From: Klebsiella pneumoniae
GTDB taxonomy: Bacteria > Desulfobacterota > Binatia > UBA12015
Assembly (NCBI GenBank): GCA_945872365.1
Contig: CAMBZJ010000011.1
Location: 1 to 64,000 of the forward strand
Reading direction: 5' to 3'
Length of the DNA stretch: 64,000 nt
In this document: positions 35,481-47,837 of the stretch, piece after piece
Layout: each line of letters starts with the position of its first letter
How positions within the stretch are numbered: the stretch's first letter is position 1
Translations under genes and position numbers: made by a program
The notes under the pieces: generated by a model
Told to the model about the DNA's origin: nothing
The model's input: only the letters and a program-made list of their open reading frames with translations
Databases searched by the model: none

Positions 35481-36392
35481 TCAGGGATTCGCGGCGAGGA
35501 AGTCGATGACCACCCGGGCGAGTTCGGGCCCGCAGTCCTCCTGCAGGAAGTGCCCGCCGCCAGCGAGGGTCGTGTGCGGCTGGCCCTGGGCGCCCGGAAT
35601 GCGCTTCTCGAGTGCCTTGTTACCGCCGCGGTTGAACGGGTCCTTGTCGCTGAAGGCGCAGAGCAGCGGACGGTCGAAACGATCGAGGGAGGTCCAGGCG
35701 CGCAGCTGGTCAGGCACCGCCGGGTTGTCGGGCGTGATCGGGATCAACCCCGGAAAGCTCTTCACGGCCGACTTGAAGCTCTCGTCGGGGAACGGCGCGT
35801 CATAGGCGGCGAGCTCGGCCTCGGAAAGTCCGCCCGTGCAACCCATGCTCACCATCTGGCCGACCGGGAAGACCTTCATCTGGCGGGCCATCTCCGGCCA
35901 CTTGCGGAGGTCCTCGCTCACCGGCGTCTGCCCGGTCGGCATCCCGGTATTTGCCGCGACCACCGAGCGGAATCGCGCGGGATGTTCCGCGACCAGTCGA
36001 AGCCCGATGATGCCGCCCCAGTCCTGGCAGACGAGGTTCACCTCGCGCAGGTCGAGGGCGTCGAAGAGAGCCGCGCGCATCCACTCGACGTGGCGCGCGA
36101 CCGAGTAGTCTTCCTGTAGCGCGGGCTTGTCCGACCGCCCGAGCCCGACCAGGTCGGGCGCGATGCAGCGGTGGCCTGCCTCGACCAGCAGAGGGATCAT
36201 CTTCCGGTAGAGGTAGGACCAGGAGGGATTGCCGTGCATCAGCAGGACAATCCGGCCGTCGCGGGGCCCCTCGTCGAGGTGGTGCACGCGGAGCCTGCCG
36301 CCCTCGCCATCGGGCACCTCCACATAGTGCGGGGCGAACGGGAACCCCGGCAGGTCGGTGAATCGTTGGTCGGGGGTACGCAGGATCTCCAT
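35481..36392 (-). CDS. Haloalkane dehalogenase
   Basis: A ~303-residue alpha/beta-hydrolase that hydrolyses carbon-halogen bonds to give an alcohol and halide. The oxyanion motif is HGNPSWSYLYRKMI, with Asn and Trp expected to bind halide. The nucleophile is the Asp in VCQDWGGIIG, followed by the second halide-binding Trp. The acid is in FSDKDPF and the His in GGHFLQED. This set distinguishes dehalogenases from epoxide hydrolases. The ATG at 36392 has AAGGGAG at good spacing. It diverges from an SDR gene that could act on the alcohol product. Confidence 0.85.
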   Translation of the reverse strand: MEILRTPDQRFTDLPGFPFAPHYVEVPDGEGGRLRVHHLDEGPRDGRIVLLMHGNPSWSYLYRKMIPLLVEAGHRCIAPDLVGLGRSDKPALQEDYSVARHVEWMRAALFDALDLREVNLVCQDWGGIIGLRLVAEHPARFRSVVAANTGMPTGQTPVSEDLRKWPEMARQMKVFPVGQMVSMGCTGGLSEAELAAYDAPFPDESFKSAVKSFPGLIPITPDNPAVPDQLRAWTSLDRFDRPLLCAFSDKDPFNRGGNKALEKRIPGAQGQPHTTLAGGGHFLQEDCGPELARVVIDFLAANP

Positions 36393-36546
36393 GGGGACTC
36401 CCTTTTCCCGTATCTTTTCCGTTATCTGCTCGCCGGCTCTCTTCCGAACCGGCAGCACTCAGGCTGGTGGCACCACTTTCGTGCTTGCCACCGCCACCGT
36501 CATGAGCATAGGGTCTGCCAATTCTCGGAACAAGGGGGCGGAAGGC

Positions 36547-37996: not shown

Positions 37997-40459
37997 ATGA
38001 AGACGCGAATCCAATCCTCGATCCGCCGGCTGACGCGGCGGTTTGCGCGACCGGCGACCGCTGTTGCGACGGTGGCCTTCGCCGCCACGCTCTGCGGGCT
38101 CTTGGGCTGCAGCGACTCGGGCGGCGACGCCGTGCCGCCGGCTCCCACCGCGACGCCGGCTCCACCCGAAGCCCTCGTGGTGCCCGGCGCATGGTCTCGC
38201 ACCGAGCAGCGCGAGGCCTGTGCGAGCTTCGACATTTACCGGCAACCCTGGTTCGGCGAGACCCACGTCCACACCGCGTATTCCTCGGATGCCGTCTTCG
38301 CCGGGACCCGGGAAAATCCGCGCGGCGCCTACGTCTTCGCCAAGGGCGGCGACCTTCCGCTTCCGCCCTTCGATGCCGAGGGCAACCCGACCCGCAAGGC
38401 GCGCCTGCGCCGACCACTCGATTTCGCGGCCGTGACCGACCACGCCGAGCAATTCGGCGAGATCCAGATCTGTCTCACGCCGGGACTCTCGGGCTACGAC
38501 TCGCCCGAGTGCGTTTCGGCGCGCAACCAGCTGGCCGCGCCGCTTCCGGATGTGCCGACACAGCTCCCCCCGCCCGCGGTCATCCAGTTCCTGCTCACCT
38601 ACGGCCTGCCGAATGCCAAGCGCTATTCCTGGTGCGGCCCCGACGGGGAACTCTGCCTCGCCCAGGCCTCGCTCGTCTGGCAGGACGTCCAGGCCGCGGC
38701 GGAGGAGCACTACGACCGGACCGACGCGTGCGACTTCACGACCTTCGTCGCCTACGAGTGGTCGGCGCAGCCGAGCGGCAATAATCTGCATCGCAACGTG
38801 ATCTTCCGCAACACGCAGGTTCCCGAACGGCCCACGACCGCGATGGAGGCCATCCGTCCGGACCAGCTCTGGAGTGCCCTGCGCGAGCAGTGCCTCGACG
38901 GCAAGCCCGGCTGCGACGTCCTCGCGATCCCGCACAACCCCAACGTGAGCGGTGGTCTCATGTTCGAGCCGGTGAACCCCGACGGCCGTGCGCTGACCGC
39001 AGCCGACGCGGCCTTCCGCTCCGCGATGGAGCCGCTCGTGGAGATGAACCAGCACAAGGGCGACTCCGAGTGCCGCACCGGCTTCGGTACGAGCGACGAA
39101 GCGTGCGGCTTCGAGAAGTTGAACCGCCTCCAGCTCTTCAATCCGCTCTCGGACCCCAACCAGGCGTTTCCCCCGCTGAACTACGTGCGCAACGCGCTGA
39201 AGGAGGGACTCGTCCAAGAGGAGAAACTCGGCGAGAATCCCTTCCGGTTCGGCTTCGTGGGTGCCACCGACGGTCACAATTCCGACCCGGGCAACGTCGT
39301 GGAGCGCGACTACGGCGCGGTGGGTCACGTCGGCAACCGTGAGCGCAATCCGCGTACCATTCTCGCCCGCATCTCCCCGGCCGGGGTCGAGGGAAATCCG
39401 GGCGGGCTCGCCGTGGTCTGGGCGGAGGAGAATTCGCGCGACGCGATCTTCGCCGGCATGCGGCGCCGCGAGGTCTACGCCACGAGCGGCACGCGGCCCA
39501 TCCTGCGCTTCTTCGCCGGCGCCGAGCCGGACCTGCGCTGTGGCGACCCGCGCTTCGTCGAAAACGCCTATCGCGGCGGCCTGCCGATGGGCGCGGAGAT
39601 CGGACCGGTCGCCGGCGCCGCGAGCCCGCGCTTCGGCGTGCTCGCCTTCCGCGATCCGGGCAGCGAAGGCGACCCCGGTGCACCGCTTCAGCGTCTCCAG
39701 ATCGTCAAGGGCTGGGTCGACCGCGACGGCAAGGCGCAGGAAAAGGTCGTCGAAGTGGCGGGGAATCCCGCCAACGGCGCGGACGTGGACACGAGAACCT
39801 GCACCCCGACCGGGGCTGGCGAGGACTCGCTGTGCGCGGTGTGGAGCGATCCGGACTTCGATCCGGCGCAGCGCGCGTTCTATTACGCCCGCCTGCTCGA
39901 AAACCCGACCTGTCGCTGGCACACCTACGTCTGCAACCGACTCGGCATCGACTGCACGGCTCCCGATACCGTCCCCGAGGAGTACGCGGAGTGCTGCAAC
40001 GCAGCCCTGCCGCGCAAGATCCAGGAGCGCGCCTGGTCTTCGCCCATCTGGTACCAGCCGGACGGGGTTGCGACGCTCAAGGGAGAGATCGCCCTCGACG
40101 GTGCGGGAAGCAACGTTCTGCGCCTCGCGATGACGCTCGGTGCCCTGCCCGCGGGCTTCGATCCGGCGACGCAGGAAGTGGTCGTCGTGCTGCGCGACGA
40201 CGACGAGATCTTCCGCACGACGCTTCCCGCGGGCGCACTCGAGGGCACGGCCGGCCTACCCGAAGGCCTCGAAGAGGCCTCCCTGCAGCGCGCCGGCGAC
40301 GGCTCGGTGGTCTTCGCGTTGACGACCTCGCCGCGCGACCTCTCCGCGGCGGCGGCCGCCGATCACTTCGTCGAGGTCCAGGTGCGCTTCGGCGAGCATC
40401 AGGTTTCGACCGTCCCGCTCTGGCGGTTCGCCGACGGGCGACTGGCGACCGGGGACTGA
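37997..40459 (+). CDS. DUF3604 lipoprotein (PHP-like putative metal-dependent phosphoesterase)
   Basis: An ~820-residue lipoprotein with signal peptide and lipobox GLLGC at Cys38, then a low-complexity Pro/Ala linker. The DUF3604 domain carries metal-ligand-like motifs: WFGETHVHTAYSSDA, DFAAVTDHAEQFGE, IPHNPNVSGG and GATDGHNSDPG. These match PHP-type trinuclear metal centres. It is preceded by GAGGAGG and its stop overlaps the next ATG by one base, so it forms a unit with the isomerase and HupE-like protein. Substrate is unknown. Confidence 0.85.
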   Translation: MKTRIQSSIRRLTRRFARPATAVATVAFAATLCGLLGCSDSGGDAVPPAPTATPAPPEALVVPGAWSRTEQREACASFDIYRQPWFGETHVHTAYSSDAVFAGTRENPRGAYVFAKGGDLPLPPFDAEGNPTRKARLRRPLDFAAVTDHAEQFGEIQICLTPGLSGYDSPECVSARNQLAAPLPDVPTQLPPPAVIQFLLTYGLPNAKRYSWCGPDGELCLAQASLVWQDVQAAAEEHYDRTDACDFTTFVAYEWSAQPSGNNLHRNVIFRNTQVPERPTTAMEAIRPDQLWSALREQCLDGKPGCDVLAIPHNPNVSGGLMFEPVNPDGRALTAADAAFRSAMEPLVEMNQHKGDSECRTGFGTSDEACGFEKLNRLQLFNPLSDPNQAFPPLNYVRNALKEGLVQEEKLGENPFRFGFVGATDGHNSDPGNVVERDYGAVGHVGNRERNPRTILARISPAGVEGNPGGLAVVWAEENSRDAIFAGMRRREVYATSGTRPILRFFAGAEPDLRCGDPRFVENAYRGGLPMGAEIGPVAGAASPRFGVLAFRDPGSEGDPGAPLQRLQIVKGWVDRDGKAQEKVVEVAGNPANGADVDTRTCTPTGAGEDSLCAVWSDPDFDPAQRAFYYARLLENPTCRWHTYVCNRLGIDCTAPDTVPEEYAECCNAALPRKIQERAWSSPIWYQPDGVATLKGEIALDGAGSNVLRLAMTLGALPAGFDPATQEVVVVLRDDDEIFRTTLPAGALEGTAGLPEGLEEASLQRAGDGSVVFALTTSPRDLSAAAAADHFVEVQVRFGEHQVSTVPLWRFADGRLATGD

Positions 40460-41514
40460 TGCGAGGCGCTCTCGCAGCGCATTGGTTGCGGTCACCCCTG
40501 CTGCAATTTCTCGTCGGCGGCGCGTTGCTGTTCCGTGCCGTCCACGGGCCGCACCCGTTCGCTGCGGCGGCCCGGGGCGACGGCGCGCGTCCGATCGTCG
40601 TCTCCGCCGCGGAGGTCGCGCGGATGCGCGAGGACTACACCAAGCAGACCGGACTCGATCCCGGAGAAGCCGGTGAGGCGGCGCTGGTCGACCAGGCGAT
40701 CGACGAGGAGGTCCTGTACCGCGAGGCGCGCGCGCGCGGCCTCGACCGCAACGACCGCAGCGTGCGCAGCTGGCTCGTCGAGCAGGCGCGCGTGCTGGCC
40801 GACGATGCCCTCGGGCCGAGCGTCGCGACGGCATCGGAGGGCGGATCCACCGCGGCCGAGGAGGAGCTCTACCAACGCGCTCTCGAACTGGGCCTCGACC
40901 GCAAGGATCTCGTCGTGCGTCGCATCCTCGTCCAGAAGATGCGCCTGCTCGCCTCGCGTGTCGGTGAAACCGAGGCGACTGACGCCGAGCTGCGGGCCTT
41001 CTACGAGCGGGAGGCCGAAACCTATCGCGTTCCCGCGCGGGTCACGCTCAGCCACGTCTTCTTCTCCGATGCGCGTCCGGCGGCGGGCGAGCCGGACGGG
41101 CCATCCGCCGGTGAGCGCGCGCGGCGCACCCTGCTCGACGTGCGCACGGGTCGCATCGACGTTTCCGCCGCGATCGGCCGAGGCGACTCCTTCGCGCTGC
41201 CGGCGCGCCTGGTCGCCTGGTCGCCCGCGCACATGGAGAAGCTGTTCGGCGGCGACGTGACCGCCACGGTGATGGAAGCGGCAGCCGGCGTCTGGACGGA
41301 ACCGATCCCCGGGATTGGCGGCGTACACCTGTTCCTCATCGAGGAGCGCCACGCGGGCGGGCCCCCCGCCTTCGGCGCGGTGCGCGGCCGATTGCGGGAG
41401 GCCTGGCTCGAGCGGCAGAGAAAGGAGCGCGTGACAGCCCTGCGGCGCGAGTTGCGTGCGCGCCAATCGATCATCGTGGAGTCCGCGGCCTGGAACGCGA
41501 GGCCGCACTCGTGA
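40459..41514 (+). CDS. Parvulin-type peptidyl-prolyl isomerase family protein, membrane-anchored
   Basis: A 351-residue protein with one N-terminal hydrophobic segment (PLLQFLVGGALLF), a helical SurA-like region, and a PpiC/rotamase_2-like domain with YRVPARVTLSHVFFS and VWTEPIPGIGGVHLFLIEE. Proteins of this type assist folding of exported proteins. Its start overlaps the DUF3604 stop and its stop overlaps the next GTG, so three genes are translationally linked. A dedicated foldase for the DUF3604 lipoprotein or the HupE-like protein is an inference from this coupling. Confidence 0.8.
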   Translation: MRGALAAHWLRSPLLQFLVGGALLFRAVHGPHPFAAAARGDGARPIVVSAAEVARMREDYTKQTGLDPGEAGEAALVDQAIDEEVLYREARARGLDRNDRSVRSWLVEQARVLADDALGPSVATASEGGSTAAEEELYQRALELGLDRKDLVVRRILVQKMRLLASRVGETEATDAELRAFYEREAETYRVPARVTLSHVFFSDARPAAGEPDGPSAGERARRTLLDVRTGRIDVSAAIGRGDSFALPARLVAWSPAHMEKLFGGDVTATVMEAAAGVWTEPIPGIGGVHLFLIEERHAGGPPAFGAVRGRLREAWLERQRKERVTALRRELRARQSIIVESAAWNARPHS

Positions 41515-42572
41515 GGGTCTTGCGGGATACGGCGGGGGGTGAGGCACGGACGCGACGTTCACGCATCCTCCCGGGCGCTCTCGCGGTCGGACTCGCGGTC
41601 GGACTAGCCGCCGTCGCCTGCGCGCGCCCGGCCCGGGCACACGGCCTAGAACCCGCCCTGCTCGTCCTCCGCGAGATCGGCCCCGGTGCATTCCAGGTCA
41701 CGTGGAAGTCGGCGGCACAGCGTCTTCCGGGGGCTGAGGTCCGACCGGACCTGCCCGCGGAGTGCCGCTCGACGTCGCCAATCGAGGCCGAGGACGGCGG
41801 TGAGCGCGTCCGGCTTCGCTGGACGGTCGACTGCGGTCCCGAGGGACTCGCCGGGCGCGACGTCGGGGTACGCGACCTCGACGTCGCAAAGATCACGGCA
41901 CTGCTCCGCATCGAGCTGCGCGACGGCACGAGCCGGCAGACCGTCCTGAACGAGGCCACCCCGGTCTACCGCGTGCCGGTGCGGCCGCAGCCGCTCGACG
42001 CCTTTCGCGACTACCTGCGACTCGGGGTGGAACACATCCTCTCCGGGCCGGACCACCTGCTCTTCGTGGCCGGCCTCCTCCTGCTCTCCACCGGCGCCGG
42101 CCCGTTGCTGCGCACCGTGACCGGATTCACGGTCGGCCACAGCGTCACGCTCTCGGCCGCCGTTCTCGGCCTCGTGCGCGTGCCTTCGCGTGCGATCGAG
42201 GTGCTGATCGCCGCGAGCATCCTCGCCCTCGCCGTCGAACTCGCGCGTCGCCCGGTGCGTGGCGCCTCCGGAGCGTGGATCCGGGTTCCGTGGCTGGTCG
42301 CCGCCGGCTTCGGACTCTTGCACGGCTTCGGCTTCGCGGGTGCGCTCACCGAGGCCGGGCTTCCGGCCGACGGCATCCCCGCTGCCCTGCTCGCCTTCAA
42401 CGTCGGGATCGAGATCGGCCAGGTTGCCTTCGTCACGGCCCTGCTCGCCCTCGGCGGCTTGCTCGCCCGGGCGGGTCTGGCTTCGGGCGGCGCCCGCCGG
42501 GCGGTCGTCTGGTCGATGGGCGTCCTCGCCGCCTTCTGGTGTTTCGAGCGAATCGCGCTCTTGCTGGGTTGA
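41511..42572 (+). CDS. HupE/UreJ-family membrane protein
   Basis: A 353-residue protein. A signal peptide-like N-terminus is followed by a soluble N-terminal domain (~residues 45-155) and then six or so membrane helices. Family landmarks are VEHILSGPDHLLFVAGLLLL, TVGHSVTLSAA and GFGLLHGFGFAGAL, with several membrane His and Asp residues. HupE and UreJ are nickel/cobalt permeases, but this subgroup with the extra N-terminal domain is of unknown function. No hydrogenase or urease genes are present. Confidence 0.82.
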   Translation: MRVLRDTAGGEARTRRSRILPGALAVGLAVGLAAVACARPARAHGLEPALLVLREIGPGAFQVTWKSAAQRLPGAEVRPDLPAECRSTSPIEAEDGGERVRLRWTVDCGPEGLAGRDVGVRDLDVAKITALLRIELRDGTSRQTVLNEATPVYRVPVRPQPLDAFRDYLRLGVEHILSGPDHLLFVAGLLLLSTGAGPLLRTVTGFTVGHSVTLSAAVLGLVRVPSRAIEVLIAASILALAVELARRPVRGASGAWIRVPWLVAAGFGLLHGFGFAGALTEAGLPADGIPAALLAFNVGIEIGQVAFVTALLALGGLLARAGLASGGARRAVVWSMGVLAAFWCFERIALLLG

Positions 42573-42648
42573 GCCATCGGGCGCGGCCGGGTAAGGAGGC
42601 AATCGGCACGAGCACTGCCGCTTGTCCCGAGCCATCCGAGGAGTCCGC

Positions 42649-43758
42649 ATGCCTGGCCAAGATGACGGAACCGCCATCGACTTCGAGATCGACCGACGCG
42701 ACTGGCACAAGGTGCGCTTCCGCGACTCGGCGAGCCCGGTGGCGACGTCCCCCGGACAGGTCCTGCTGCGCGTGGATCGTTTCGCCCTCACGTCGAACAA
42801 CGTGTCTTATGCGCTCACCGGCGACATGCTCGGCTACTGGAACTTCTTCCTCGCGGAGGCGGGTTTCGGGCGCGTGCCGGTGATGGGCTTCGCGGACGTC
42901 GTCGAGTCGCGCCACCCCGACGTGAAACCCGGCGAGCGCTTCTTCGGCTTCTATCCGATGTCCACCCACCTGCTCGTCGAGGCGGCCGACGCGACCCGGT
43001 CGCAGTTCGTCGACGTGGCTGCGCACCGGCGCGACACCGCGCTCGCCTACCGGCAGTACCTGCGCTCGTCGGCCGATCCGCAGTACGAAGAGCAACGCGA
43101 GGACGCGATCCTGCTGCTGCGCGGGCTCTTCCTCACGTCGTTTCTGGTCGACGACTTTCTCGCCGAAAACCGAGAGTTCGGAGCTACGCGGTTCTTCGTG
43201 TCGAGTGCGTCGAGCAAGACGGCGATCGCGCTCGCCGCCTGCCTGTCGCGCCGCAAGGCCGGCCGCGTGGTCGGTCTCACCTCCGAGCGCAACCGCGCCT
43301 TCGTGTCCGGCCTCGGCTGCTACGACGAGGTGCTTCCCTACGCGGCGATCGAGGCCGTCGATCCCACGACGCCGAGCGTCTTCGTCGACCACTCCGGAGA
43401 CGGTCGCGTGGTGAACGGGCTTCACCGCCGGCTCGGCGAGAACCTGCGCCACAGTGCGGCCGTCGGCGCCACCCACTGGAACGGCGAGCGTCCCGCCCGC
43501 AACCTCCCGGGTCCGTCGCCCACCTTCTTCTTCGCGCCCAGCCAGCTCGAGAAGCGACGCGCCGAGTGGGGGCCGGAGGGGTTCGAGGCCCGGCTCGGCG
43601 AGAGTTGGCGCTCCTTCCTCGGTTTCAGCGATGGTTGGCTGCGGATCGTGCGCGGCCGGGGCCGCGCGGATCTCGAGCGGGTGTGGGGAGACCTGGTCGA
43701 CGGGCGGGTTCGCCCGGAGGAAGGCCACATTCTTTCGCTTCAGGACCGCAACGGCTGA
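42649..43758 (+). CDS. DUF2855-family protein
   Basis: A 369-residue protein that matches the DUF2855 family in layout, with an MDR/quinone-reductase-like fold: LLRVDRFALTSNNVSYAL near the N-terminus and FVSSASSKTAIALA where a Rossmann nucleotide-binding motif would lie. GAGGAG precedes the ATG. It is followed 28 bases later by a DUF1330 gene, likely cotranscribed. The enzymatic role is not known; an NAD(P)H-dependent reductase is inferred. Confidence 0.75.
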   Translation: MPGQDDGTAIDFEIDRRDWHKVRFRDSASPVATSPGQVLLRVDRFALTSNNVSYALTGDMLGYWNFFLAEAGFGRVPVMGFADVVESRHPDVKPGERFFGFYPMSTHLLVEAADATRSQFVDVAAHRRDTALAYRQYLRSSADPQYEEQREDAILLLRGLFLTSFLVDDFLAENREFGATRFFVSSASSKTAIALAACLSRRKAGRVVGLTSERNRAFVSGLGCYDEVLPYAAIEAVDPTTPSVFVDHSGDGRVVNGLHRRLGENLRHSAAVGATHWNGERPARNLPGPSPTFFFAPSQLEKRRAEWGPEGFEARLGESWRSFLGFSDGWLRIVRGRGRADLERVWGDLVDGRVRPEEGHILSLQDRNG

Positions 43759-43785
43759 TCCGAGCCGCCCAAGGAGGAATCGTCG

Positions 43786-44229
43786 ATGAACGTCGAAAAT
43801 CGCGTCTACCCCGACAAGGGCCAGATCGAGGAGTGGATGCGGCCCGGTCCGCCGGGCCCGGTCGTCATGGTGAATCTGCTCAAGTTTCGCGAGCGCGCGG
43901 CCTATCCCGACGGCCGCGACCCCGGGATCTCCGGTCGCGAGGCTTATGGTCGTTACGGCGAAGCCTTCACCCGTGGACTGCTCGAAATCGGTGGCAGGGT
44001 CCTCTTCGTCGGGGACGCGACGTACCTCCAAGTGGGACAAGCCGAGCAGCTCTGGGACGAGGTGGCGATCGTCGAGTACCCGAGCCGCGAAGTCTTCTTC
44101 GCCATGGCGACGAGCGACCGCTGGCGCGAGATCTCGGTGCATCGCGAAGCCGGGCTCGAAGGCCAGCTCAACATCGAGACCGTTCCGACCGAGGCGTTCA
44201 AGGCGCTCGCAGCGCGCACCCGCGGCTGA
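43786..44229 (+). CDS. DUF1330-family protein
   Basis: A 147-residue dimeric alpha-beta-barrel protein. Characteristic segments are VVMVNLLKFRERAAYP, YGRYGEAF, and EVAIVEYPSREVFFAMATS. No membrane segment or signal. AAGGAGG precedes the ATG. It belongs with the DUF2855 gene, and a membrane-anchored relative is encoded at 37365-37985. Function unknown. Confidence 0.8.
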   Translation: MNVENRVYPDKGQIEEWMRPGPPGPVVMVNLLKFRERAAYPDGRDPGISGREAYGRYGEAFTRGLLEIGGRVLFVGDATYLQVGQAEQLWDEVAIVEYPSREVFFAMATSDRWREISVHREAGLEGQLNIETVPTEAFKALAARTRG

Positions 44230-45923: not shown

Positions 45924-45962
45924 GCCCGCACCGCGGACGTGCTAGCATCGGGGGGCGTCAGC

Positions 45963-47837
45963 ATGGGACGTCTCTCACGATGGGCGAGTGCGGCCCCGGC
46001 CGCCGTCGCGGCGATCGCGGCCACGCTCCTTTCGGCCTGGGCCACACCTCCGCCCGCGAACGTGGTGAAGCTCGGTGGCGCGATCGAGACGCTCGAAGGC
46101 GGACGCACCCGTGCACGCGCGATCCTCGAGGTGGCACCCGGCTTTCACATCAACGCCCACCGACCCAGGCAGACCTTCCTGATCCCGACCGAACTCACTC
46201 TGGTCGGGGGCTCGTTCGGAGCACCGAGCTACCCGGAACCGGTCGACAAGCGCCTCGCCTTCGCGGGCGAGGAGTCGCTCCTGGTCTACGACGGGACGGT
46301 GCGGATCTCCGCGGAGAGCGATCGCCCTCCCGATGGGCCGGTGTTCGCGAAGCTGCGCTACCAGGCCTGCGACGAAGAGCGCTGCCTCCCCCCCCGGACG
46401 ATCGAAGCCCTGCTCGCCCCGGCGAAGGGCGGACCCGGGGCGGGCACGACGGCCGCGGCGGAGGGGAGCGTCGGCGAACAGGCCAAGGCCCCTGCTCCGA
46501 CCGGAACTCCGGGGGGGATAGAAGGGGACGCAGGCTCCCGGGCCACCGATCGCCAGCCCTGGCTCGCGCGCTGGCTTGCGCGGGCAAGCCTGCCGGCGGC
46601 CGTGGCGATGACCTTCGTGCTGGGCCTCGGCCTGAACCTGACCCCCTGCGTCTATCCGTTGGTCTCGGTGACCGTCGCTTTCTTCGGCCATCAGGCAAGG
46701 CCGGGGCTTCGATCGCTCCCCTTGTCGATCGCCTATGTCGCGGGGATCACCCTCACGTTCGCCCTGCTAGGCACCAGCGCCGCCCTCTTCGGGGGACTCG
46801 TCGGGGCACCATTGCAGCATCCCGTGGTGCCGATCTCCCTCGCCGCCCTGCTGGTGGCGCTCGCCGCGTCGAGTTTCGGGCTCTTCGAGATCCGGGCTCC
46901 TTCCGCCCTCATGGAGCGCTTCGGACGAGCCTCCGGTGGCGTGGCGGGCGCTCTCCTCATGGGGCTCACGATGGGCATCGTCGCCGCGCCCTGCATCGGG
47001 CCGGTGGTTCTCGGGCTGCTGCTCTACGTCGGCGCGAAGCGCGACGCCGTGCTCGGATTCCTGCTCTTCCTCTCGATGGGTCTCGGGATGGGCCTGCCCT
47101 ACGTCTTGCTCGCGGCCGCCGCCGGGTCGATCGGTTCGTTGCCCCGGTCCGGCGAATGGCTGCGCTGGATGAACCGACTCTTCGGCGTGATCCTGCTCGG
47201 GATGGCGCTGTACTTCGTCGCTCCCCTGTTGCCGCCCGGGGTGGCGCGCTTCGCGCTCCCGACCCTGCTCGCGGTAGCCGGACTCTACCTCGGCTTCCTC
47301 GAGCCTTCGGGCCGCAACCTGCGCGGCTTCACCCGGTTGCGGCGCGGCCTCGGCACGGCGGCAATCGCCACCGCCGCCTGGCTCGGGTTGGCGAGCGGTC
47401 TGCGGGCCACGCCCGCAGGTTCCGGTATCCGCTGGGAACCGCTCGCCGTCGACTCGATCGACCGCGCGATCGCGAGCCGGCGACCGACGATCCTCGAGTT
47501 CGGTGCCGAATGGTGCATGCCCTGCGGCTTGATGGAGCGCACGACGTTCGCCGATGCCGAGGTCACACGGGAGGCCGGGCGCTTCAGCATGCTGCAGGCC
47601 GACGTGACGGAGAACTCGCCCGAGAATGAGGCTCTGCTCGGGCGATTCGGCGTGCTCGGCGTGCCGACGGTCATCTTCTTCAACGCGCACGGCGTCGAGG
47701 TCGACCGCGTCGTCGGCTATGTCGATTCGGTCCGCTTCACGGACCTGATGCGCAAGGTGGCCGCTGCACCGGGGGCGCCCGGGGCCAACGAGCGCACCGA
47801 GGCCGCGCCGTCGGACGTAGCGCGGGACCGCAACTGA
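45963..47837 (+). CDS. dsbD: Thiol:disulfide interchange protein DsbD
   Basis: A ~624-residue inner-membrane reductant conduit passing electrons from cytoplasmic thioredoxin to periplasmic thiols. Signal peptide, an N-terminal immunoglobulin-like DsbD-alpha domain with the Cys pair in QACDEERCLPP, about eight membrane helices with the redox cysteines in LNLTPCVYPL and APCIGPVVLG, and a C-terminal thioredoxin-like domain with EWCMPCGLME. All three Cys pairs are present. The TGA overlaps an in-frame CTG of the next gene. Confidence 0.93.
   Translation: MGRLSRWASAAPAAVAAIAATLLSAWATPPPANVVKLGGAIETLEGGRTRARAILEVAPGFHINAHRPRQTFLIPTELTLVGGSFGAPSYPEPVDKRLAFAGEESLLVYDGTVRISAESDRPPDGPVFAKLRYQACDEERCLPPRTIEALLAPAKGGPGAGTTAAAEGSVGEQAKAPAPTGTPGGIEGDAGSRATDRQPWLARWLARASLPAAVAMTFVLGLGLNLTPCVYPLVSVTVAFFGHQARPGLRSLPLSIAYVAGITLTFALLGTSAALFGGLVGAPLQHPVVPISLAALLVALAASSFGLFEIRAPSALMERFGRASGGVAGALLMGLTMGIVAAPCIGPVVLGLLLYVGAKRDAVLGFLLFLSMGLGMGLPYVLLAAAAGSIGSLPRSGEWLRWMNRLFGVILLGMALYFVAPLLPPGVARFALPTLLAVAGLYLGFLEPSGRNLRGFTRLRRGLGTAAIATAAWLGLASGLRATPAGSGIRWEPLAVDSIDRAIASRRPTILEFGAEWCMPCGLMERTTFADAEVTREAGRFSMLQADVTENSPENEALLGRFGVLGVPTVIFFNAHGVEVDRVVGYVDSVRFTDLMRKVAAAPGAPGANERTEAAPSDVARDRN

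Follow-up and report, generated by a model that had tools for sequence, protein, structure and literature searches.

A recurrent DUF3604–PpiC–HupE gene trio that probably encodes one cell-envelope system

The window analysed here, 64,000 nucleotides of contig CAMBZJ010000011.1 (assembly GCA_945872365.1), carries at positions 37997-42572 three overlapping genes on the forward strand, coding in this order for a DUF3604 protein, a parvulin of the Rotamase_2 family (PpiC) and a HupE_UreJ_2 membrane protein (HupE). Do these genes form one system, and what could such a system do? No paper linking DUF3604, PpiC and HupE was found in the literature searched, where DUF3604 itself appears in an incidental table entry only.

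Gene layout and further copies in the genome

The DUF3604 gene (37997..40459, + strand) codes for 820 aa matching PF12228 with 548 bits (E 3.6e-164), and the sequence GAGGAGG lies immediately 5' of its ATG. Its TGA (40457-40459) shares one nucleotide with the ATG of the PpiC gene at 40459 (TGATG). The latter (40459..41514, +) encodes 351 aa with a match to PF13145 (Rotamase_2) of 41 bits at a cut-off of 27. Its end shares four nucleotides (GTGA) with the GTG start, at 41511, of the HupE gene (41511..42572, +), whose product of 353 aa matches PF13795 (HupE_UreJ_2) with 150 bits. The coordinates and both overlaps given in the first-pass annotation were reproduced from the sequence, and its family assignments were confirmed by Pfam.

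The gene upstream of DUF3604 has no Pfam match and stops 11 nt before the DUF3604 start, and transcription may thus start at a point farther upstream; a scan for promoters and terminators at the trio revealed nothing exceeding shuffled sequence. Genes for DUF2855 and DUF1330 proteins follow the trio (42622-44229) and stand beside it also in loci L013 and L022; these two families recur beside the trio in only a few loci. Further downstream, on the same strand, a DsbD-like thiol-disulfide membrane protein with a thioredoxin domain is encoded (45939-47837). On the reverse strand at 35481-36458 lies a gene for an alpha/beta hydrolase, with Abhydrolase_1 as its only Pfam match and sequence motifs that, in our reading, resemble those of haloalkane dehalogenases.

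This genome contains three DUF3604 regions and as many HupE genes. The end of contig C36 carries an apparent DUF3604 C-terminus followed by PpiC and HupE and thus represents a second trio, the missing start of which is perhaps on contig C18. Contig C17 contains a PpiC-HupE pair of the HupE clade B described below, and contig C37 a DUF3604-PpiC pair without an adjoining HupE (L062:3446-8536, − strand), followed by a sulfatase gene on the same strand. This is the one co-directional case of a sulfatase, which in several other loci is found nearby. As a fourth partner the sulfatase was rejected, its linkage being near expectation in a 10 kb-scale test on five genomes.

Co-occurrence and evolution of the three families

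Among 299 genomes of Pseudomonadota, 20 carry DUF3604, 59 carry HupE_UreJ_2 (above 40 bits) and 18 carry the two together, a co-presence with a hypergeometric p of 2.7e-12, phylogeny not being corrected for; shared ancestry of the sampled genomes may explain part of it. The families are also linked on the chromosome: for 22 of the 30 DUF3604 matches in this set a HupE_UreJ_2 match is no more than 5 kb away, the chance for each being at most 1.2%, and the spacing is typically 1.3 kb, matching the size of a single PpiC gene. By our reading of the match tables, the 198 genomes of the phylum to which the window belongs include 13 with DUF3604, 12 with HupE_UreJ_2 and eight with both, and many of these copies are adjacent.

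The complete trio was found in 38 loci among the 117 stretches scanned, in Pseudomonadota, Myxococcota, Binatota and others. Judged by domain coordinates, 25 loci have the order DUF3604-PpiC-HupE and six PpiC-HupE-DUF3604, while DUF3604 lies on the opposite strand in five and other orders occur in two, so that at least four arrangements exist. No fourth widely recurring gene family was found beside the trio in the scanned loci. Failure of the families to co-occur had been set beforehand as grounds for refuting the first-pass proposal of one envelope system; they do co-occur, and that proposal is well supported by the co-occurrence (18/20), the linkage (22/30 within 5 kb), the 38 loci and the presence of the pairing in two HupE clades. 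Since the trio travels together in very different bacteria, it is probably one cell-envelope system.

Overlapping genes are common in bacteria, and the overlaps observed here could in principle reflect a compact genome, the three proteins having no joint function. This explanation is highly improbable: it is contradicted by the co-occurrence, the recurrence of the trio across phyla and gene orders, a linkage far above expectation and the fact that no other neighbour is kept.

Adjacency is nevertheless not obligatory, as indicated by DUF3604 without HupE and by genomes rich in DUF3604 and poor in HupE. The DUF3604 genomes without HupE are three of one family plus G333 and G454. Two Myxococcota (G206 and G207, loci L010 and L011) possess about 20 DUF3604 genes each; their HupE genes are few and nearly all distant from DUF3604. 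Genome G242 contains a single 333-aa frame (C2:46141-46476) in which the beginning of a DUF3604 match runs directly into the last part of a HupE match; it resembles the remnant that a deletion would leave of a DUF3604-PpiC-HupE trio.

In the HupE tree, neighbouring PpiC or DUF3604 genes are confined to clade A (43 rows, SH-aLRT 99) and clade B (11 rows, SH-aLRT 100), both of them supported, and the other 60 rows have neither neighbour. The AU test does not reject the hypothesis that the pairing arose once (p 0.40). The protein distances of the three families correlate with r of 0.79-0.88, against a permutation maximum of 0.32, with species history, which contributes to the correlation, not removed. 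A separate HupE clade (L219, L223 and L239 with the relatives L212, L225, L228, L236 and L237) clusters with genes for DUF4331, a TPR-like protein and an apparent pair of sigma and anti-sigma factors. DUF4331, RND efflux, DUF4198 and YHYH proteins also recur beside HupE but were set aside as trio partners, as they belong to other HupE clades.

Predicted properties of the three proteins

The DUF3604 precursor carries a type II signal peptide with the lipobox LLGC, a PHP-like metal domain and C-terminal beta domains. The metal-site motifs, encoded at 38264..39277 (+), comprise H90xH92, D98, D148-H149, E254, H265, H313 and D425xH427 in protein numbering. The nine ligands H90, H92, D98, H149, E254, H265, H313, D425 and H427 are invariant in all 44 aligned DUF3604 proteins, including those of the divergent clade B, and stand in the order of a trinuclear PHP site (H,H / H or D / H / E / H / H / D,H), which is also found in four YciV-like PHP proteins. 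An AF2 model (pLDDT 86, pTM 0.88) compared with the PDB by Foldseek gave a match to the PHP-like phosphoesterase 3e38 (E 6e-4, probability 1.00). This was the only meaningful one among six matches under E 0.001; the others are of immunoglobulin type and presumably fall on the modelled C-terminal beta domains. The PHP-like metal site named in the first-pass annotation is thus strengthened by both the ligands and the fold. The Pfam profile search gave no PF02811 (PHP) match, and for this reason DUF3604 is filed as PHP-like by fold and ligands and not as a PF02811 member. Alignment with the YciV-like PHP proteins by hhalign, a weak test with a profile of four sequences, reached a probability of 9.9% and covered the first motif only. 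No solved relatives were found by sequence. A simple rule detected an export signal in 39 of 49 DUF3604 proteins, with a few doubtful lipoprotein assignments and several of the other proteins truncated by the rule. Two DUF3604 copies within one operon occur in L014, L015, L023 and L245. The best reading of DUF3604 is an exported PHP-fold enzyme with predicted metallo-phosphoesterase activity.

PpiC has a single N-terminal hydrophobic segment serving as a membrane anchor. Its profile matches structures of PEB4/Cbf2, HP_0175 and SurA, 3rfw among them, with E from 1e-10 to 3e-8. The active-site histidine pair of parvulins is retained in part of the family: the C-terminal H290 is present in 36/36 sequences and H199 in 27/36, while the first histidine is replaced by Gln in 8/36; the PpiC of the window keeps both. 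By sequence it is a membrane-anchored periplasmic parvulin of the SurA/PrsA/PEB4-like type, with a predicted role as isomerase or chaperone.

HupE carries a signal peptide ending in ARA, directly followed by His44 (codon 41640..41642, +) as the predicted mature N terminus, and His occupies this position in 37 of 38 clade-A HupE proteins. The permease motif HX5DH (H175, D181, H182; 42033..42056, +) is conserved in 38/38, as are H210, E243, H271, N297, E301 and Q304 downstream of it. The AF2 model (pLDDT 87.5) shows a beta-strand domain (residues 49-154) followed by long helices; fold search with this model was uninformative, giving no match under E 0.001, with the Ang-1 structure 9GCE likewise unmatched, and no solved relatives were found by sequence, the profile of trio HupE having no match to any solved Ang-1 structure.

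Anglerases, which consist of an ectodomain with an N-terminal His fused to a HupE/UreJ-2 permease, were described in Nat Commun in 2025, where the ectodomain of RbAng-1a is reported to bind Cu (73.6 nM) and Ni (220 nM) (PMC12537917). The extra N-terminal domain of HupE remarked on in the first-pass annotation is beta-rich and bears a mature N-terminal His like these proteins (PMC12537917). The trio HupE is of anglerase architecture and, by analogy, is predicted to bind metal at its N-terminal His. Across a diverse set of about 115 HupE_UreJ_2 proteins (L004-L265), a near-invariant His immediately follows the signal peptide in almost every member, extending beyond both anglerase groups described in 2025.

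The absence of the usual HupE/UreJ partners, reported earlier for the neighbourhood, holds for the whole genome: no strong urease-alpha and no NiFe-hydrogenase match is present, PF00374 being unmatched and PF00449 matched only partially (27 bits). By our reading of the match tables, a strong urease or hydrogenase match is missing in 12 of the 22 genomes with DUF3604 and HupE, so nickel supply to these enzymes is ruled out as the common reason for the pairing.

The permease could also carry something other than a metal, for example the product of DUF3604, with HX5DH and the His serving another role. Such a substrate-product couple would agree with the lack of known metal-homeostasis partners and with a permease strictly paired to a single enzyme family. 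All residues of the classical HupE/UreJ metal site are invariant, however, and the mature N-terminal His is near-invariant across the wider HupE_UreJ_2 family, which makes this quite unlikely.

The distance from the PpiC stop to His1 of mature HupE is mostly 48-129 nt, with a few values distorted by the search pattern. A signal peptide takes up roughly this distance, and the two genes therefore abut or overlap in most pairs. Such tight coupling, together with PpiC-HupE pairs that have no DUF3604 nearby (L007, L235, L254, L260), would suit a PpiC that mainly folds the HupE ectodomain, DUF3604 being a frequent passenger of the pair. Against this stand the presence of HupE_UreJ_2 in 18 of the 20 DUF3604 genomes and the DUF3604-PpiC pair without HupE on contig C37 (L062), and several of the apparent pairs lacking DUF3604 sit at contig ends; the passenger role is rather unlikely.

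Proposed joint function and comparison with known systems

The best explanation of the trio, to which we assign a probability of about 0.42, is an exported metallo-phosphoesterase of PHP type, served by a foldase of its own and by a permease that handles metal. From the gene layout, the repeated co-occurrence, the conserved ligands, the folds and the export signals, which the analysis shows, we infer a scheme of catalysis, foldase-client relation, metal identity, transport direction and physical contact. DUF3604 would be exported as a lipoprotein (in other species by means of a signal that is cleaved or serves as an anchor) and would fold with the aid of the co-translated inner-membrane parvulin. 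Its nine-ligand PHP site would bind up to three divalent metal ions, and the enzyme would hydrolyse a phosphate ester, or a similar ester, outside the cytoplasm. The mature N-terminal His on the beta-rich ectodomain of HupE would bind a divalent metal in the periplasm, above the HX5DH permease, and HupE and its partners would keep the metal available to, or balanced with, the DUF3604 enzyme.

Metal delivery to an exported phosphoesterase, as suggested in the first-pass annotation, is the leading but unproven idea, and we infer metal supply from co-occurrence. Transport direction is the main difficulty. The known HupE-type permeases import into the cytoplasm and would therefore draw metal away from a periplasmic enzyme, which counts against the best explanation. 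The genomes with DUF3604 but no HupE, the two Myxococcota with many DUF3604 and few HupE genes, the missing PF02811 match and the low-probability alignment with YciV-like proteins weigh on the same side. A dedicated metalation line, in which HupE works outward or in both directions, its N-terminal-His domain passes metal to DUF3604 and the parvulin keeps the enzyme open, would amount to machinery for inserting metal in the periplasm of which the literature searched gives no description; we consider it rather improbable.

The chief rival reverses the order of events, with metal capture after hydrolysis: DUF3604 would cleave an external phosphorylated or metal-chelating compound, the HupE His would catch the released metal for import and PpiC would fold the exported parts. 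Metal import by HupE-type permeases fits this order, and so does DUF3604 being exported, sometimes duplicated within an operon and present in about 20 copies in two genomes, as is often the case for hydrolases of varied substrates. Capture and uptake of metal are also what the 2025 anglerase study proposes (PMC12537917). Yet TonB receptors, metallophore genes and metal regulators are not among the recurrent neighbours of the trio, and the additional DUF3604 copies mostly lack an adjacent HupE; scavenging is somewhat unlikely.

The trio is real, widely conserved and undescribed as a unit in the literature searched, although each of its parts resembles something known. In it, an exoenzyme of PHP-like type is joined by a foldase and by a permease that catches metal. 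DUF3604 is widespread, and little is understood of how exported enzymes receive their metal; with the trio, HupE ectodomains gain a candidate client enzyme, and the hypothesis is testable within one operon.

The best meaningful fold match to DUF3604 is 3e38 (BVU_3505), a two-domain predicted PHP-like phosphoesterase of 343 residues with 10% identity and a TM of 0.45 by target. The exported PHP phosphodiesterase Sb-PDE of Sphingobium TCM1, which binds Zn, offers a precedent for such an enzyme (PMC5460133). It is exported and has a nine-ligand PHP-type site like DUF3604, for which metal-dependent phosphodiester hydrolysis is only proposed; Sb-PDE is, however, a PF02811 member of 441 aa, whereas DUF3604 is a lipoprotein of 820 aa that carries additional beta domains and does not match PF02811. 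The trio PpiC matches SurA, PrsA and PEB4 (Cbf2) over the N-terminal and parvulin parts, with an invariant C-terminal catalytic His, and differs in its membrane anchor, in the occasional replacement of the first His by Gln (8/36) and in its dedication to one operon. Classical HupE/UreJ nickel permeases share HX5DH and the further invariant His/Glu residues with the trio HupE, which differs from them in its large ectodomain and the lack of linkage to urease or hydrogenase.

According to the anglerase study, Ang-2 often has metallophosphatase genes nearby; no mention of PpiC or DUF3604 neighbours was seen in the text found of that paper (PMC12537917). The neighbours it gives for Ang-1 (DUF4198, PfkB, Indigoidine_A) occur here with a separate HupE clade (L214, L215, L217, L224, L229, L230, L232 and L233), the Ang-1 group being placed in the tree by these neighbour genes and not by the Ang-1 protein itself. 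The trio HupE, belonging to a different clade, is therefore regarded as anglerase-permease-like and not filed as Ang-1. With both Ang-1 and Ang-2 it shares a signal peptide, a mature N-terminal His, a beta-rich ectodomain and a HupE_UreJ_2 permease within one chain.
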